From Sphaerochaeta associata (GTDB lineage: Bacteria > Spirochaetota > Spirochaetia > Sphaerochaetales > Sphaerochaetaceae): DNA of 64,000 nt. How positions within the stretch are numbered: the first letter of the stretch is position 1; each line of letters begins with the position of its first letter. The notes below the pieces were generated by a model. That model searched no databases and had not been told where the DNA came from. It saw only the letters and a program-made list of their open reading frames with translations. Location: NCBI RefSeq assembly GCF_022869165.1, contig NZ_CP094929.1, positions 3,162,001 to 3,226,000 on the forward strand, given 5' to 3'. Of this stretch, positions 1,527-9,543 are shown one piece after another. Both the position numbers and the translations under genes were made by a program.

Positions 1527-2546
1527 TTAGATGAGGCCGAACCGCTTTACAAAGGCTTCGGCATTCTGAATCGACCCGCCGGCAGCGCCCTTGACGATGT
1601 TGTTGACCAGCAGGAGGAACCCGATCTTGTTGTTTTTCTTCTTGAGGCGGCCGGTATAGACAACCATTCCGCTGGGGTTTCCCCAGAAGGCATACTTGGG
1701 CTGAGGGAAGGTGTTGTCGCTGCCATACTCGACCGGCAATTCAGGAGTGGAGGGCAGGTCGGAGACTTCCTTGAAAGACGCCCAATCGGCGATGATGTCC
1801 TCGACCTCAACGTCCTGCTCGAGATCAAGCCAGACAGCCTCAAGGTGTCCGAACATGACCGGTACGCGCACGGTGTAGCAATACACTTCCGGATTGATGG
1901 TGAGAATCTTCTTGATTTCTTTCTCGATTTTCTCTTCCTCACCCTTGATGAAAGGAATGCAGTTGTCGGTGATGTCAAAAGAGGAAAGACCAGGGTATCC
2001 TGCACCGCTGACACTCTGATAGCTGTGAAGCATAATGTTCTTGATCCCGTACTTGCGAAGCGGGGCGAGGGCCATGGCCAAGCCGGTTGTCACACAGTTG
2101 GCATTGGTAACCACGAAACCCTTATCCGGATATCCCTGGTCCTTGATCAAGTCGAGCTGTTCGACGTTGGTCTCGGGAATGAGAATGGGAACATTGCTCT
2201 CATAGCGCATGGAAGCGGCGTTGGAGAAGACATAAAAGCCGTTGTCACGCAGCTGGGGCTCGGCTTCACGTGCGACTTCTGCAGGAAGAGCAGAGAAGAC
2301 GATCTTGACTCCTGCTTCCTTCATCGCTTCCATGTTGAACTCTTTCACTTCCACGTCACGTACATTCTTCGGCATCTCAAAAGGCATGACCCAATGTACG
2401 GTCGAAGCATATTTCAAGCCAACGCGGGAAGCTGAAGCTGTGGTGTATGCCAATTCAAACCAAGGATGATCGGCCAGCATCCACATAAACACCTGGCCAA
2501 CTGCGCCAGTAGCACCCATTACGGCAACTTTAATTTTCTTGTCCAT
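1527..2546 (-). CDS. asd: Aspartate-semialdehyde dehydrogenase
   Basis: Catalyses NADPH-dependent reduction of aspartyl-4-phosphate to aspartate-4-semialdehyde, the branch point to lysine/diaminopimelate, threonine and methionine. The 339-residue protein starts with a Rossmann glycine motif (GATGAVGQ, 11-18). It has the active-site cysteine in NANCVTT (C151) and ends with the conserved NNIVKGAAGGSIQNAE segment. Its length and the HSYQSVSGAGYPG stretch fit the archaeal/fungal-like subclass found in some bacteria better than the E. coli type. GGGAGA lies 9 bases before the ATG. It is monocistronic by layout: a terminator follows and a roughly 200-base AT-rich leader precedes. Confidence 0.95.
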   Translation of the reverse strand: MDKKIKVAVMGATGAVGQVFMWMLADHPWFELAYTTASASRVGLKYASTVHWVMPFEMPKNVRDVEVKEFNMEAMKEAGVKIVFSALPAEVAREAEPQLRDNGFYVFSNAASMRYESNVPILIPETNVEQLDLIKDQGYPDKGFVVTNANCVTTGLAMALAPLRKYGIKNIMLHSYQSVSGAGYPGLSSFDITDNCIPFIKGEEEKIEKEIKKILTINPEVYCYTVRVPVMFGHLEAVWLDLEQDVEVEDIIADWASFKEVSDLPSTPELPVEYGSDNTFPQPKYAFWGNPSGMVVYTGRLKKKNNKIGFLLLVNNIVKGAAGGSIQNAEAFVKRFGLI

Positions 2547-2753: not shown

Positions 2754-3359
2754 CTATCTCCCAAGTTTTATAACTTCTTGCACTGCTAAGGTAAAGGCGA
2801 TTCCACTGCCAGGATTCTGCATGCAGGAAAGCTGTGCGATGGAAGCAAGAATCCTATCGGTATGTTCCCGTTTCACGAACATCATCAAAAGTTCCTTCTC
2901 GGGTACCAAAGTCGAGCCGTAAAAGGCAATGTCATCCGATTTGGCGGTTCCCCGGCCGTTGACGATGGTTCCTCCGCTTGCTCCCGCCTTGCGGGCTGCA
3001 GTCATGATATCGTCGGCATACCCGCTGGTGCAGATTACGTTGATCAGATTCCACTCTACAGTCTTTGGTGCGGAAGAGGCCTCTCCATCCCATGAAGCCG
3101 GCACGGCGGCAAGCACCCCATGCACATGACGGTCGTTGCTTATTGCTTTGAAGACTGCATCCTTGACTGCATCATTGATTACGGTCATCAGGATTTCCTT
3201 GTGGGAATCACCAAGACCAAGGATGCACAAAAGAGAGCTGGATGCGGTACCGCGTCCGGTAAGGATGGTGCCTCCGGTACTGCCGGCTTTCTTGGCTACC
3301 TGCATCAGAACATCGGCCTTCCCTTCTTCTACAATTGCAAACAACAAGGTATTTCTCAT
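2754..3359 (-). CDS. Tandem P-II-like regulator protein
   Basis: A 201-residue protein made of two P-II/GlnB-like repeats in one chain, about 1-95 and 100-201. The repeat signature is easy to see: VAKKAGSTGGTILTGRGTA in the first and ARKAGASGGTIVNGRGTA in the second. P-II proteins are trimeric sensors (ATP/ADP, 2-oxoglutarate or other ligands) that bind and gate membrane transporters. The T-loop region has no obvious uridylylated tyrosine motif, so classical GlnB/GlnK function is unlikely. The start codon overlaps the stop of the DUF1538 gene by 4 bases (ATGA), implying translational coupling. It is therefore the probable regulator of that membrane protein. The ligand is unknown. Confidence 0.8.
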   Translation of the reverse strand: MRNTLLFAIVEEGKADVLMQVAKKAGSTGGTILTGRGTASSSLLCILGLGDSHKEILMTVINDAVKDAVFKAISNDRHVHGVLAAVPASWDGEASSAPKTVEWNLINVICTSGYADDIMTAARKAGASGGTIVNGRGTAKSDDIAFYGSTLVPEKELLMMFVKREHTDRILASIAQLSCMQNPGSGIAFTLAVQEVIKLGR

Positions 3360-4822
3360 ATGCTCTTTTCTCCTTTTGAAGCGTCCATTTTCTTTTGCGT
3401 TCGTTTGTAGACAAGGCCCAGAAGCTCAACAATGACTACAGGTGTCATCGAAACAAAGATTATCACCCCGAATGCATCAGTGAGGGGATTGCCTCCCACC
3501 GACACCGAGCTGCCGATGGCGAATGCAAGAATGAACGTGGAAGCCATGGGACCCGAGGAGACGCTGCCGCTATCGAAAGAGAGTCCGACGAACAGGTCGG
3601 GCACAAAGAAGGAGAGTAATACTGCCAATGCATAGGTGGTCAATACAAAGTACCAGATGGAGAGTCCGGTTATCACCCGAATCATGGCAAGAAAGAGCGA
3701 CAAACCCACCCCGATTGCAAGAGCGACAAGCATGAGAGGTTTTTTGATATGTCCCTGGGTGATCTCCTGCACCTGGTTCACCAGCACCCACACGGAGGGC
3801 TCCGAGAGGACGGTGATGGCGCCGATGACCGCCCCAACCAAGAGCAGCAGGTACTGATTGTAGGTCCCGATGGCGTATCCGATCTGATACCCCACCGGGA
3901 TGAAGCCGCCGTTGCTCCCCATGAAAAAAAGGGTAAGCCCGATGAAAAGATAGACAAATCCCGTTCCCATGCGGACAAGTTGGCCAAGGGGCATTTTCAA
4001 CAGAAAGATTTGATAGAAAAGACAGAGCAGGAGAAGCGGAACGAGGGCTTGGGTCGTCATTGCAAGGCTCGGCTGGATGAGTGTGAGGAAGTTTCCCGCC
4101 GCAGCAACGCTGGCATCGCCCGAAGCAGCAGCGCCTCCTCCTTTGTTGAACAGGCCAAGAATTCCAAGGGCGAACGTCGGACCGATGAGGGCGAGGGAGA
4201 CATACCCAAAGTTGTCGGCGTCGTTCTGTTTCTTCTGGACACGGGCGATACCGATACCGATGGCCATGATGAAAGGCACCGACAGCGGACCGGTGGCTGC
4301 TCCACCGGCATCGAAGGCGATACCCATCATTTCAATGGGGCTGAAGATGAAAAGAATGAATAACAGGGCATAGCTGACCAGATAGACCAAGCGAAGCGAG
4401 AGGTGGAAAACAACCCTGACCATGCCGACCATGAGATAGAACCCAACCCCGATGGCTATCATGGAAACAAGGGATGTCTTGGAAATCGAAGGGTTCACCC
4501 CTTTCACCTGTTCGGCCAGGACCGCAATATTCGGCTCTGCGAGAATGATGACGACCCCTACAAGAAAGCCGGTTCCAAGCAGGACCGGCAAGTGCTTGGA
4601 GCGCGTTGCCGCTGAACCTATGCGCTCACCAATGGGCAGCAATCCAATGTCGACTCCCAGCAAAAACAGGGAGAGGCCTACGATAAGCAGGAAACCTCCG
4701 ATGATGAAGGATGTCAATGAGCCCGCCGGCAGCGGAGTGATGAAAAAATGCATGAGTGCAACAAGCGCGAGAATGGGAATGATGGATGATCCAACTTCCT
4801 TTAACTTCTTGAGCAACTCCAT
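3356..4822 (-). CDS. DUF1538 polytopic membrane protein (transporter-like)
   Basis: A 488-residue, very hydrophobic protein with about 12-14 predicted membrane helices. It consists of two homologous halves. GLSLFLLGVDIGLLPIGERIG in the first half corresponds to GLTLFFMGSNGGFIPVGYQIG in the second, and VIILAEPNIAVLAEQV corresponds to ITVLSEPSVWVLVNQV. This matches the DUF1538 family, whose substrate is unknown to me. The conserved Glu-Pro in each half and the inverted-duplication style suggest a carrier or channel. AAGGAGG stands 5 bases before the ATG. A TTGACC box followed by 17 bases and TAATAA lies upstream on the minus strand. The P-II-like gene follows with a 4-base overlap. Confidence 0.8.
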   Translation of the reverse strand: MELLKKLKEVGSSIIPILALVALMHFFITPLPAGSLTSFIIGGFLLIVGLSLFLLGVDIGLLPIGERIGSAATRSKHLPVLLGTGFLVGVVIILAEPNIAVLAEQVKGVNPSISKTSLVSMIAIGVGFYLMVGMVRVVFHLSLRLVYLVSYALLFILFIFSPIEMMGIAFDAGGAATGPLSVPFIMAIGIGIARVQKKQNDADNFGYVSLALIGPTFALGILGLFNKGGGAAASGDASVAAAGNFLTLIQPSLAMTTQALVPLLLLCLFYQIFLLKMPLGQLVRMGTGFVYLFIGLTLFFMGSNGGFIPVGYQIGYAIGTYNQYLLLLVGAVIGAITVLSEPSVWVLVNQVQEITQGHIKKPLMLVALAIGVGLSLFLAMIRVITGLSIWYFVLTTYALAVLLSFFVPDLFVGLSFDSGSVSSGPMASTFILAFAIGSSVSVGGNPLTDAFGVIIFVSMTPVVIVELLGLVYKRTQKKMDASKGEKSI

Positions 4823-4987: not shown

Positions 4988-5005
4988 ACCTTCTGTTATT
5001 GCCTT

Positions 5006-5079
5006 GGGGGTGTAGCTCAGTTGGCTAGAGCGTTTGAATGGCATTCAAAAGGTCAGGGGTTCAATTCCCCTTACCTCCA
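5006..5079 (+). tRNA. tRNA-Ala(GGC)
   Basis: Folds as a full cloverleaf: acceptor GGGGGTG pairing with TACCTCC (5072-5078), D-stem GCTC/GAGC, anticodon stem TTTGA/TCAAA with loop ATGGCAT and anticodon GGC at 5040-5042, and T-stem AGGGG/CCCCT with loop TTCAATT. The acceptor contains the G3-U70 pair that identifies alanine tRNAs. The CCA end is not encoded. It reads GCC codons. Confidence 0.96.
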
Positions 5080-5084
5080 TTGGA

Positions 5085-5260: not shown

Positions 5261-6049
5261 TTACGGAGCGGGCTGTGTCACCGTAGCTTGGTCCAGCGCA
5301 ACAGAGGTTTGGGCCAACAATCTTCCGTTCATACTGGAACTGGTTTGTATGTTGATATTCGTCATGCACAGTACGACACCCTCAAAGTGAGAGTTCGCCC
5401 CCATGGTCACCGAACCTGCCACCTGCCAGAAGATGTTCTTTGCCAATGCTCCACCGGCAAGAGTCACCTGGATTGCGCTTGCCAGGGAAAGATCGCCATC
5501 AACTTGGAAAATCCATGTGTCTGTAGCGGTGCCGCTGATGATGAGATTGGCTCCACTGATATTCACTGAACTTGTCCATTTATAGAGACCAGGAGCGAGA
5601 GTCTGCCCACCGATTGCTCCAGACATGAGGTTCAGCTCATCGGGCTCGGTTCGACCGGCTGCAAAATTGTATGCTGTCTCCATATCCGATATCGCCGTAG
5701 TCAAATTCGAAGGTGTAGGCGAAGTCATGTTGGCGGCATAGAGATTGCCGGTTACCTGCGTAGAGGTTGCATAGGTTCCAATAAGAGTTTCAGAGAATCC
5801 TGTATAATAGGTTCTGGCAGCCGGGCTAAGCCCCAGATCGCCGGTAATAGCAGAAGTGGGAGTTGTCGCAACTCCGGTTTTTGACAGGATTACAAAGTCA
5901 CCTGCAGTACCCAGGTCAACTACTGTGGCCCCGATGCCAGTACTGGCTGGAGAAGAAACTCCCCCATCACAAGCTATAAACGAGCCTGCAATCACGATGA
6001 TTGCAAACATTGCAACGAGAACATTTCTTACATATTTGGTTTTTTTCAT
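5261..6049 (-). CDS. DUF3494 (ice-binding-like) lipoprotein
   Basis: A 262-residue secreted protein. Residues 1-27 form a signal peptide ending in FIAC, a lipobox-like site with C27, so it is probably a lipoprotein. The rest matches the DUF3494 beta-solenoid family: VDLGTAGDFVILSKTGV at the start, SAITGDLGLSP, TYNFAAG-like helix region, GLYKWTSSVNI, WIFQVDGDL and KNIFWQVAGSVTMG. Some members bind ice, while others are adhesion or surface proteins of unknown role. A strong GGAGG lies before the ATG. The gene stands alone behind a leader of several hundred bases with AT-rich promoter-like sequence. Ice binding is not implied for this organism. Confidence 0.85.
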   Translation of the reverse strand: MKKTKYVRNVLVAMFAIIVIAGSFIACDGGVSSPASTGIGATVVDLGTAGDFVILSKTGVATTPTSAITGDLGLSPAARTYYTGFSETLIGTYATSTQVTGNLYAANMTSPTPSNLTTAISDMETAYNFAAGRTEPDELNLMSGAIGGQTLAPGLYKWTSSVNISGANLIISGTATDTWIFQVDGDLSLASAIQVTLAGGALAKNIFWQVAGSVTMGANSHFEGVVLCMTNINIQTSSSMNGRLLAQTSVALDQATVTQPAP

Positions 6050-7222: not shown

Positions 7223-7933
7223 ATGAAAGAATCGTTTCCCCACCAAGCCTATACCAAGCTCAGCGCTGCGTATGCTGCAGCCATCGACACGAAGCCCCAC
7301 AACGCTTTCTACGACCGGCCGGCGGTCAAATCCCTGGTGGGTTCTCTTGGTGGGCGGCACATCTTGGATGCTGGATGTGGAACAGGGGCCTACACCCAGT
7401 GGCTGCTGCAGGAGGGCGCACGTGTTGTTGCACTCGATGCCAATGAAGCCATGCTTGCCCATGCCCGGGACCGAATCGGGGACAAAGCCGAATTCGTGCA
7501 AGCAAATCTTGAGGAACCGATGCCCTTTCTGCAATCTTCTTCCTTTGACGGCATTCTCAGTGCCTTGACCATCACGTACTGCAAGGACCTGCTGCCGGTA
7601 TTTACCGAGTTCTCACGAGTACTCAAGCCCCAAGGGTGGCTGGTATTCTCCACCGAGCACCCTTTTTTTGCTTACAGGAACAACAATCTCCAGTCCTATT
7701 ATGAGACGCAGGAGTTGCATATTCCCTGGAAAGGGTTCAGCGTCGAGGTGGTCATGGACAGCTATTACCACAGTTTGAGTGCAATTACTGAAGCCCTTTC
7801 GTCTTCCGGATTTCTTATAGAACGCATCATCGAACCCTATCCTGCCAAGGAGTTTGAAGCCGCCGATCCCAAGGGATACGAAAAACTGATGAAGTTTCCC
7901 CTCTTCTTGTTTGTAAGGGCGATTAGGCGTTAG
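7223..7933 (+). CDS. Class I SAM-dependent methyltransferase
   Basis: About 236 residues from the chosen ATG at 7223 (GAGG upstream); an in-frame ATG at 7184 lacks a ribosome site. Motif I is ILDAGCGTGAYTQWLL near residue 47. The acidic residue of motif II is in VVALDANEAML, and the post-I segment is FDGILSALTITY. This is the Methyltransf_11/25 type of small-molecule or RNA methylase. The substrate is unknown. A TTGTTG / 18 bases / TATACT promoter candidate lies at 7142-7171. Its stop codon overlaps the stop of the convergent transposase gene. Confidence 0.85.
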   Translation: MKESFPHQAYTKLSAAYAAAIDTKPHNAFYDRPAVKSLVGSLGGRHILDAGCGTGAYTQWLLQEGARVVALDANEAMLAHARDRIGDKAEFVQANLEEPMPFLQSSSFDGILSALTITYCKDLLPVFTEFSRVLKPQGWLVFSTEHPFFAYRNNNLQSYYETQELHIPWKGFSVEVVMDSYYHSLSAITEALSSSGFLIERIIEPYPAKEFEAADPKGYEKLMKFPLFLFVRAIRR

Positions 7934-9486
7934 GTCTCCAATCCCAGATGCAGCAGTTCATTGACTTTCTTCTGTACTGAGGTAAGTCGGCCGCAATAGC
8001 AGGTCCCCTGTTCGCTGAATGAGACATTCCGCAAGTCACTGAGGGAGAAGAGCACCTCTTCCACGGAAAGTCCACTTCCTTCCAGAGCCTCGTGGAGTAC
8101 AGCCCTGATCGTCTCACTGATCAGTTGCAGAAATACCCTGCCAAGGAAGTATTGCGGGCTTTGGACCTGCAGGTTTTGACAATCCTCGAAGTTCATGAGG
8201 TTATCGAATCTTCGTTCGAACGCATTGCGTTTCTCGTACATATCCAGTGCTTCCTGGCTCGAAAGTTCCGTATTGGTCACCAAGGCCCAGAATCCGGCAT
8301 GGGAGGCTTCGAAACGCTGTACGGGATCGGATGCAAGCTGTACATGATGCAAGGCTTTGCTGCGCTTTCGGACTCTGAAGTACGTCTCATACAACCTTGC
8401 ATGCTCCTCGACATGCTGGCCGGTTTCAAGCTCCCGCTTGCATCGGCCCAACAAGGAAAAGAGATTCTCCCTTTGATTGGTCCGCCAGAGCTCATCATAA
8501 AACAGATGCACATAGAGAGATTGGTTCCCGAAAAATGGAGCCAGGAGGCGAAGGCTCCGTATATTTCGTTTTTGTGAATCAACCAGGCCAATACCCGTTT
8601 CGATTGCCTGCCGGTTGCTTGCGATCAATTCATCGAGCCATCCTTGTCTGGTAGGAACCCGGAAAAGGAAGGATCTGTTCTGTTGCAGCAACTGTTCAAT
8701 CCTCGATAATGAGAAGAACCTGCGGTTGAGCATGAGAATGCTTGCATCGTCCGCATCGAGAAACGACAGGGTCTCGTCTACCGTCCTGCAGTCAAGCATG
8801 GTGCCGGGCAGGATTTGGAAGGAGATGGGGTGAAATCTCTCATAGGTGGTCAGAAGTACGATGGTATTCTGTTCGAGCGCCTCGCTGTCTCGATTGTACC
8901 CATACTGCAGGTATGGATTGTGATTCTCATAACTGGCGATTGCACACAGGTCGAAAACCGCATACTTCTGCCCTCCTTGTGTCAGTTTGGCCTGCCATGT
9001 CCGCAGCAGCTCCACATCGAGCAATCTCAGCAGTTCTCGCACCGCCTGAAGGTCGGCAGGCCCCTGATGGAGACCCGACTTCCCTTGTTCCCAGAACAAG
9101 GCGAAGGACAAAGGCCTTCTGTTACAGAGGAGAAACCAGGCCAGATGCAGAAGCCGGTCGGTCGCATCGGGACCGAGCAGGGAAGCAAGCTCCTGAATTG
9201 GTCGACAGTGTTGCTGAACATAGTCCTGCAGGCGGGCAAGACCCGGCGAGGTGAAGGTGGGAATCACCTGCATCCCGGTATCTTCCTGCCGGGAGATTTT
9301 TTCCCGATATGCTGGATTATAGACACGCTGGCCTGTCACACGATCCAGCTTTCCAATGCATCGACGCTTATGGCGTGTTTGTTTCTTGTGCGGGTCCCAA
9401 TAGTGTTGGTCCTCGTAGAGATAGGTAACGTTGTTCTTTTTATTGGTAATTTCAATGACTTTTGGAGGAGAAAGTGTAGCTTCCAT
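7930..9486 (-). CDS. IS4-superfamily (IS1634-like) transposase
   Basis: About 518 residues from the ATG at 9486; a TTG at 9543 would add 19 residues. N-terminal beta segment VTYLYEDQHYWDPHKKQTRHKRRCIGKLD and C-terminal YEKRNAFERRFDNLMN resemble IS1634-like DDE transposases. In the YREK-type signature the tyrosine, arginine and glutamate are present but the expected lysine is a methionine. The first catalytic aspartate is probably in YAVFDLCAIAS. I found no terminal inverted repeats, and the stop codon abuts the methyltransferase stop, leaving no room for a left end. It may be an immobile remnant or a domesticated copy. The frame itself is intact. Confidence 0.75.
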   Translation of the reverse strand: MEATLSPPKVIEITNKKNNVTYLYEDQHYWDPHKKQTRHKRRCIGKLDRVTGQRVYNPAYREKISRQEDTGMQVIPTFTSPGLARLQDYVQQHCRPIQELASLLGPDATDRLLHLAWFLLCNRRPLSFALFWEQGKSGLHQGPADLQAVRELLRLLDVELLRTWQAKLTQGGQKYAVFDLCAIASYENHNPYLQYGYNRDSEALEQNTIVLLTTYERFHPISFQILPGTMLDCRTVDETLSFLDADDASILMLNRRFFSLSRIEQLLQQNRSFLFRVPTRQGWLDELIASNRQAIETGIGLVDSQKRNIRSLRLLAPFFGNQSLYVHLFYDELWRTNQRENLFSLLGRCKRELETGQHVEEHARLYETYFRVRKRSKALHHVQLASDPVQRFEASHAGFWALVTNTELSSQEALDMYEKRNAFERRFDNLMNFEDCQNLQVQSPQYFLGRVFLQLISETIRAVLHEALEGSGLSVEEVLFSLSDLRNVSFSEQGTCYCGRLTSVQKKVNELLHLGLET

Positions 9487-9543
9487 GTTATAATTTATAG
9501 CATTCCTACTCCTCAATCTCAAGGGTAAATCATAGCCTCCCAA

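Follow-up and report, generated by a model that had tools for sequence, protein, structure and literature searches.

A DUF1538 membrane protein and its overlapping tandem P-II gene in Sphaerochaeta associata: a candidate P-II-gated antiporter

In the stretch of 64,000 nucleotides of Sphaerochaeta associata analysed here (contig NZ_CP094929.1, positions 3,162,001 to 3,226,000; hereafter the window) a gene for a DUF1538 membrane protein overlaps a gene for a protein of the P-II type. P-II proteins, which textbooks describe as sensing the nitrogen and carbon status of the cell, act as threefold assemblies. The locus raises the question of what such a sensor does beside a DUF1538 transporter, and whether the internal duplications found in both products belong together. 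A sequence-only reading had proposed that they do. We think it probable that the pair is a P-II-gated monovalent-cation/proton antiporter of the UmpAB type, for which a match between the two duplications is not the rule.

The gene pair and its two internal duplications

Pfam detected DUF1538 in two stretches of the 488-aa membrane protein (397 bits, 1.7e-119) and P-II in two stretches of the 201-aa protein (42.6 bits, cut-off 25); the features are listed in Table 1. When the halves of each protein were aligned locally, those of DUF1538 scored 310 and those of P-II 109, while the maxima of 1000 shuffles each were 86 and 53, and as both scores are far above the shuffles neither duplication is due to chance. 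The sequence-only reading had described two homologous halves in the one protein and two P-II repeats in the other, and both descriptions stand. So does the coupling of the two genes by their 4-base overlap, which is expected to link the translation of transporter and P-II. Promoter-like sites (4 against 2.8 in shuffles) and terminator-like sites (4 against 2.6) stayed inside the shuffle spread. Downstream of the pair, on the same strand, lies a gene of the semialdehyde dehydrogenase family (window 1527-2546), and upstream on the opposite strand a tRNA-Ala(GGC) (5005-5080). Window 5261-6049 encodes an ice-binding-like (PF11999) protein, and 7930-9543 is a 537-aa open reading frame without Pfam match that is transposase-like by eye only.

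Table 1. Features of the DUF1538/P-II gene pair (positions in the window) and loci with three-repeat P-II chains
Feature	Position or loci	Strand	Extent	Remark	Basis
DUF1538 x2 membrane protein	3356..4822	-	488 aa	putative fused form of the UmpA+UmpB antiporter pair	PF07556
DUF1538 half 1	4166..4786	-	residues 13-219	AEP motif E96-P97; FD-GG..TGP motif D171	own HMM
DUF1538 half 2	3428..4051	-	residues 258-465	SEP motif E341-P342; FDSG..SGP motif D417	own HMM
Tandem P-II protein	2754..3359	-	201 aa		PF00543, own HMMs, model
P-II repeat A	3090..3356	-	residues 2-90	degenerate, faster-evolving, without the B-loop PGxG seen in repeat B	
P-II repeat B	2760..3056	-	residues 102-200	more conserved; B-loop PGSG without canonical lysine	
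Repeat B T-loop region	2907..2954	-	residues 136-151	pLDDT <50; shorter than in the genome's own GlnK	
ATGA overlap, transporter stop/P-II start	3356..3359	-	4 bases		ORF coordinates
Triple P-II loci	L141-L146, L148, L149, L156-L174			beside large fused DUF1538 genes	

The structural model of the tandem P-II protein, built from only 5 sequences, reached a mean pLDDT of 72. Strands and helices of repeat A follow the P-II order, and those of repeat B do so except for one short strand, the T-loop being unresolved. Among solved structures, repeat B fitted P-II proteins, best of all 1hwu (83 residues at 2.1 A, Z 10.3); for repeat A the match was CutA1 (1vhf, 86 residues at 3.1 A, Z 9.7). It should be noted that these scores are non-specific, as the porter domains of RND pumps, similar in fold, tie with the P-II scores (5en5, Z 10.2, 148 residues) and Foldseek puts different ferredoxin-like proteins at the top of its list, where P-II first comes at rank 15. 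The family is therefore named by sequence profile and not by fold: the protein passes the profile cut-off for the P-II superfamily, and its ferredoxin-like fold is common to other families. Repeat B is better conserved than repeat A (mean identity 38% versus 26%, higher in 2441 of 2485 pairs).

Across 67 aligned relatives of the transporter the E-P motifs are invariant and the FD-G motifs conserved in both halves. E96, P97, T177 and G178 of half 1 are invariant and D171 is kept in at least 90%, while E341, P342, D417 and G424 are invariant in half 2. The NCBIfam models of UmpA and UmpB matched the protein at 4.5e-45 and 2.4e-38, at 153.8 and 132 bits where the equivalog cut-offs are 490 and 500, so that the UmpAB substrate is transferred to the window protein by inference. 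UmpA and UmpB, a split DUF1538 pair of Halomonas zhaodongensis, were reported to act as a heterodimer and as a Na+(Li+,K+)/H+ antiporter, which conferred salt tolerance and pH-dependent antiport on antiporter-less E. coli (PMC5484666). The published clone was active in antiport without any P-II gene, which makes P-II dispensable for transport (PMC5484666). As to the DUF1538 literature, "P-II" and "PII" had no hits in the main text, as available, of PMC5484666, PMC5996927 and PMC6055358, nor had "P-II" in that of PMC13255231; the sole "PII" hit in the available text of PMC7221264 is part of a sequence motif and not a protein name.

The sequence-only reading had named no substrate for DUF1538, a gap which the UmpAB relative now fills, and by analogy with it (PMC5484666) the window protein may be expected to carry out antiport. 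It could be argued that DUF1538 moves something else, such as an organic or inorganic anion, and that antiport by UmpAB is an indirect or side activity. The missed equivalog cut-offs and the single experimental study behind UmpAB antiport speak for this, as do the structural searches, in which no solved relative of DUF1538 was found by sequence and the model (from 5 sequences, pLDDT 77) gave no convincing fold match (Foldseek best E 0.012, VIA best Z 4.9). On the other hand K0.5 values were measured for the antiport with Na+, Li+ and K+ (PMC5484666), and invariant acidic residues lie in the motifs of both halves. We consider another substrate rather unlikely, and continue with cation/proton antiport as the probable activity.

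Linkage of DUF1538 to P-II and the number of repeats

DUF1538 was present in 160 of 390 Spirochaetota genomes and in 104 of 299 genomes of a Clostridia phylum, and all nine plasmid records with a DUF1538 match also contain a P-II match. One DUF1538 relative was seen in viral contigs (L113) and was left out of the comparisons. For typing, 92 transporter units had usable surroundings; 87 came from the DUF1538 search, 3 (L011-L013) from a P-II search and 2 from the window's own genome. Among the best-scoring matches listed, P-II adjoins 84 of the 87 DUF1538-selected units and 89 of the 92 overall, and the linkage ranges over Spirochaetota, Clostridia and two genera of Alphaproteobacteria. As the first matches were the best-scoring ones, 22 further, mostly low-scoring genomes were searched. 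Fifteen of these gave 18 regions, the matches in the other 7 being fragments that were left out, and P-II was found in 16 of 16 informative units. Outside this count are L147, at a contig end, and L151 (G446), a degraded copy whose DUF1538 gene has internal stops and no P-II alongside. The linkage elsewhere on which the sequence-only reading relied is thus seen in both sets.

Some P-II genes are missed by Pfam, as in 3 Clostridia genomes which have a tandem P-II and no PF00543 match. Left out of the typing were L055 (palindromic contig), L093 (transporter reaching the contig end), L010 (partial, and approximately the window's own sequence) and repeat loci of the own genome. The P-II labels of L043, L090 and L091 were set by hand (overlapping open frames), and L069 was scored as split with a short first DUF1538 gene (182-aa frame, partial match). 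The inverted repeat around DUF1538 in L055 (G374, contig C119) is probably an assembly artefact.

Every intact unit examined has two DUF1538 halves, split or fused, while the number of P-II repeats across units is 1, 1+1, 2, 2+1 or 3. Fused transporters (n = 68) are accompanied by a tandem P-II in 64 cases, by two P-II genes in one and by none in three (L035, L056 and L107). Beside split transporters (n = 24) we found one P-II gene in 10, two genes in 6 and a tandem in 8. Gaps or overlaps between transporter and P-II genes are short, and in L037 two transporters share one tandem P-II gene.

These counts bear directly on the idea that each half of a twofold transporter has one of the two P-II repeats as its partner. 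It gains from the fact that a single P-II gene stands beside none of the 68 fused transporters, and that the fused transporters with tandem and with triple P-II each form a group. Against it, the halves stay constantly at two while the repeats vary from 1 to 3, the split units have one gene, two genes or a tandem, and 27 P-II chains are triple. Matching duplication, which the sequence-only reading had put forward, thus fails as a rule, since the repeats take any of the five forms and a tandem occurs in 8 of 24 split units, and we regard one-to-one pairing as quite unlikely. The part of that reading which made P-II the likely regulator of the transporter fared better and is supported as a likely role. 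That the P-II gene is a mere neighbour without direct contact, acting for instance on expression or on another target, seems highly improbable to us, given the short overlaps and gaps, the co-occurrence across phyla and the natural fusion of P-II to a transporter. Gating of the transporter by P-II accordingly remains our preferred reading of the linkage.

Third P-II domains, three-repeat chains and their history

A second DUF1538 locus of the own genome (L006, C1:3144142-3146702) lies about 15 kb before the window start. There a 232-aa tandem P-II gene is located upstream of, and overlaps, the gene of a 621-aa transporter whose C-terminus bears a third P-II domain. Such a fusion was found in 4 units, the others being L038, L134 and L136 (from G238, G334 and G336; the P-II gene of L136 is cut by a contig end), and the fused third domain clusters with the B repeats in the domain tree (2 of 4 tested). 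By this fusion P-II is placed on the transporter itself.

Most unusual of all is the chain with three P-II units. Chains of about 350-410 aa with three P-II repeats were located directly 3' of a large fused DUF1538 gene in the first eight loci, a few frames reading longer at the N-terminus. Pfam placed none of 6 tested triple proteins above its P-II cut-off. In a profile comparison the three segments matched the repeat B profile at 97.2, 98.6 and 97.6%, where a shuffled-column control gave 0.1-0.3%. A P-II model built without the triples found all three repeats at E <=0.01 in 12 of 27 chains, and one or two in the rest. These 27 were obtained by a search with the triple alignment (E <=1e-50) in the 390 Spirochaetota genomes; G057, with pieces on several contigs, was excluded. 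The matches cover at least 340 of 376 positions in 25 of the 27 (less in G372 and G230), and all 27 genes adjoin a fused DUF1538 gene. At E 1e-25 no triple was found in the 299 genomes of the Clostridia phylum, an empty result that by itself shows nothing. No tandem, triple or repeated PII chains were found in the literature searched, judged partly by titles and the openings of abstracts, and the phrase "three PII domains" in the available part of PMC1779786 concerns a lid built from three chains.

The P-II domain tree has few columns, and many of its forks are weak. One group in it (SH-aLRT 95) comprises every one of the 71 A repeats together with the first genes of 7 two-gene pairs. On the other side stand 70 of 71 B repeats with the 7 second genes, on a weak base (17), the B repeat of L082 falling outside. 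The 10 genes for a single P-II belong with the A side (94). Read simply, these sequences would go back to a single early duplication that gave A and B, and to a later fusion; as the rooting is open, the single P-II may be ancestral or reduced.

In the transporter tree the fused transporters with tandem P-II lie together on one side of a branch. A separate group among the split transporters, on a long branch of 2.5 changes per column, holds the fused ones with triple P-II; the divergent fused L139 and L140 lie outside both. The tandem and triple groups were united in 0 of 200 bootstrap trees (a set that omits L139, L140 and L142, with about two thirds of the fused and half of the triple rows thinned at a fixed step), while a single common fusion was not rejected by the AU test (p 0.061). 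Together these results favour two separate fusions, short of proof. Transporter and P-II distances over 60 loci are correlated (r 0.84 for B and 0.76 for A, with a permutation maximum of 0.13, n = 2000), a correlation that shared inheritance alone could also produce.

Ligand site, related systems and the proposed gate

To see what this P-II may sense we compared 78 A, 78 B and 10 single DUF1538-linked domains (n = 166) with the genome's own GlnK. At the B-loop lysine column isoleucine stands in most domains of each kind (A, 60 of 78; B, 68 of 78; single, 8 of 10), and the C-loop arginine columns are not conserved in the 166; both are positions which we take to be those of ATP binding in canonical GlnB/GlnK. 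Five columns of the T-loop that the own GlnK occupies are gaps in every one of the 166 domains. The T-loop tyrosine position, presumably the modifiable site of GlnB/GlnK, is Y in 1 of 166, and since the own GlnK has V there this position is uninformative. As measured by T-loop tyrosine, B-loop lysine and C-loop arginines, the domains fall outside the canonical GlnB/GlnK subgroup. The loops contain a conserved G-R-G, which the B and single domains keep best, as well as a P-E-K-E segment. With the canonical ATP-binding lysine and arginines lost and the T-loop shorter, classical sensing of MgATP and 2-oxoglutarate is unlikely. Judged from these residues, the usual nitrogen signal is probably not what is sensed, and as ligand we would guess first at an adenine nucleotide or dinucleotide, bound in a changed pocket.

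The best known P-II-transporter pair is GlnK-AmtB, and one may ask whether this is ordinary nitrogen signalling, with a P-II of the GlnK type blocking the system that takes up a nitrogen compound. The own genome does contain a fusion of an ammonium transporter and a P-II domain similar to GlnK (L015:2607-4454), and in both systems P-II is encoded with, or fused to, the transporter. That fusion is, however, a separate P-II; AmtB-GlnK has the canonical B-loop and an ammonium channel, whereas DUF1538 is no ammonium transporter family and its P-II has mostly I for the B-loop lysine, no kept C-loop arginines and a T-loop five columns shorter. We find nitrogen signalling improbable here, and the antiporter with its own P-II sensor the better account.

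P-II genes also occur beside other transporters. In the own genome a P-II heads an operon with PTS EIIA and Mrp/Mnh Na+/H+ antiporter subunits (L017:261-5176), and a search of 61 genomes for similarity to these subunits showed the arrangement again in 11 of 11 strong-match loci (L114-L124). Of the nine weak-match loci from this search six (L127-L132), none of them in the own genome, have PTS EIIA and a PF00999 Na+/H+ exchanger followed by a small protein that is P-II-like solely via the Mrp-linked P-II (blastp 2.7e-8), being called P-II neither by Pfam nor by hhalign against the B profile (3.8% probability). These operons resemble the DUF1538 pair in joining a P-II or P-II-like gene to a Na+/H+ antiporter; they differ in their unrelated transporter families and single P-II domain. 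A further single P-II of the own genome, 79% identical to a DUF1538-linked B repeat, stands in a row with TctA, a transketolase-like gene and an HpcH aldolase (L016:4731-9775). In a machine-learning study of growth pH, DUF1538, MnhB, MrpF and TctA were among the top 20 families (PMC13255231).

Other known systems share single traits with the pair. UmpAB belongs to the same Pfam family and has two homologous halves, encoded by the two separate, overlapping genes umpA and umpB where the window has one fused gene; its published clone has no P-II, and the window protein scores below the UmpA and UmpB equivalog cut-offs. SbtA-SbtB, a bicarbonate transporter with a PII-like regulator, likewise unites a membrane transporter with a dedicated PII-like partner, of another transporter family and with a single-domain SbtB instead of a tandem P-II; its structure (7egk) matched the DUF1538 model with a Z of 2.8 only. 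NifI1 and NifI2 are likewise two different P-II proteins that act jointly, but they are encoded by separate genes and target nitrogenase. In SA1388, a NIF3-like protein into which a PII-like domain is inserted, two trimeric lids are made up of six PII domains (PMC1779786). There, too, PII domains are joined to another protein, and the two-lid plan is a possible model for the tandem P-II; SA1388 differs in having one PII domain per chain and a soluble metal protein as partner.

From all this we propose the following gate. The DUF1538 protein would be a one-chain Na+(Li+,K+)/H+ antiporter of the UmpAB type, and the overlapping gene would supply its dedicated P-II sensor. A P-II assembly may dock on the cytoplasmic face of the transporter and, upon binding a cytoplasmic ligand, switch or throttle Na+/H+ exchange, in a direction that our scheme leaves free. 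The assembly would be threefold and built from concatenated repeats, whether from a single domain, two genes, a tandem, a tandem plus one domain on the transporter or a triple chain, in a stoichiometry that we infer; repeat B would retain the more conserved loops, with A as the degenerate partner. The observations beneath this scheme are the two genes, both duplications, the kept linkage, the P-II fusion in the paralogous locus and the loss of ATP residues.

Further, we speculate that P-II proteins were recruited as general gates of DUF1538/UmpAB, Mrp and PF00999 antiporters in anaerobic bacteria. In the DUF1538 lineage a homotrimer would have become an asymmetric ring, by a tandem with a transporter-borne third domain and, separately, by a single chain of three non-identical repeats, a covalent pseudo-trimer serving as one regulator per transporter. 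We offer this wider view tentatively, at somewhat less than even confidence.

If true, these proposals would connect a superfamily of sensors with the way anaerobes keep salt and pH in balance, and DUF1538 would gain a regulator. The series from one to three repeats may represent a natural experiment, leading from a homotrimer to a covalent asymmetric ring, and it predicts the oligomeric state and stoichiometry of the purified proteins.
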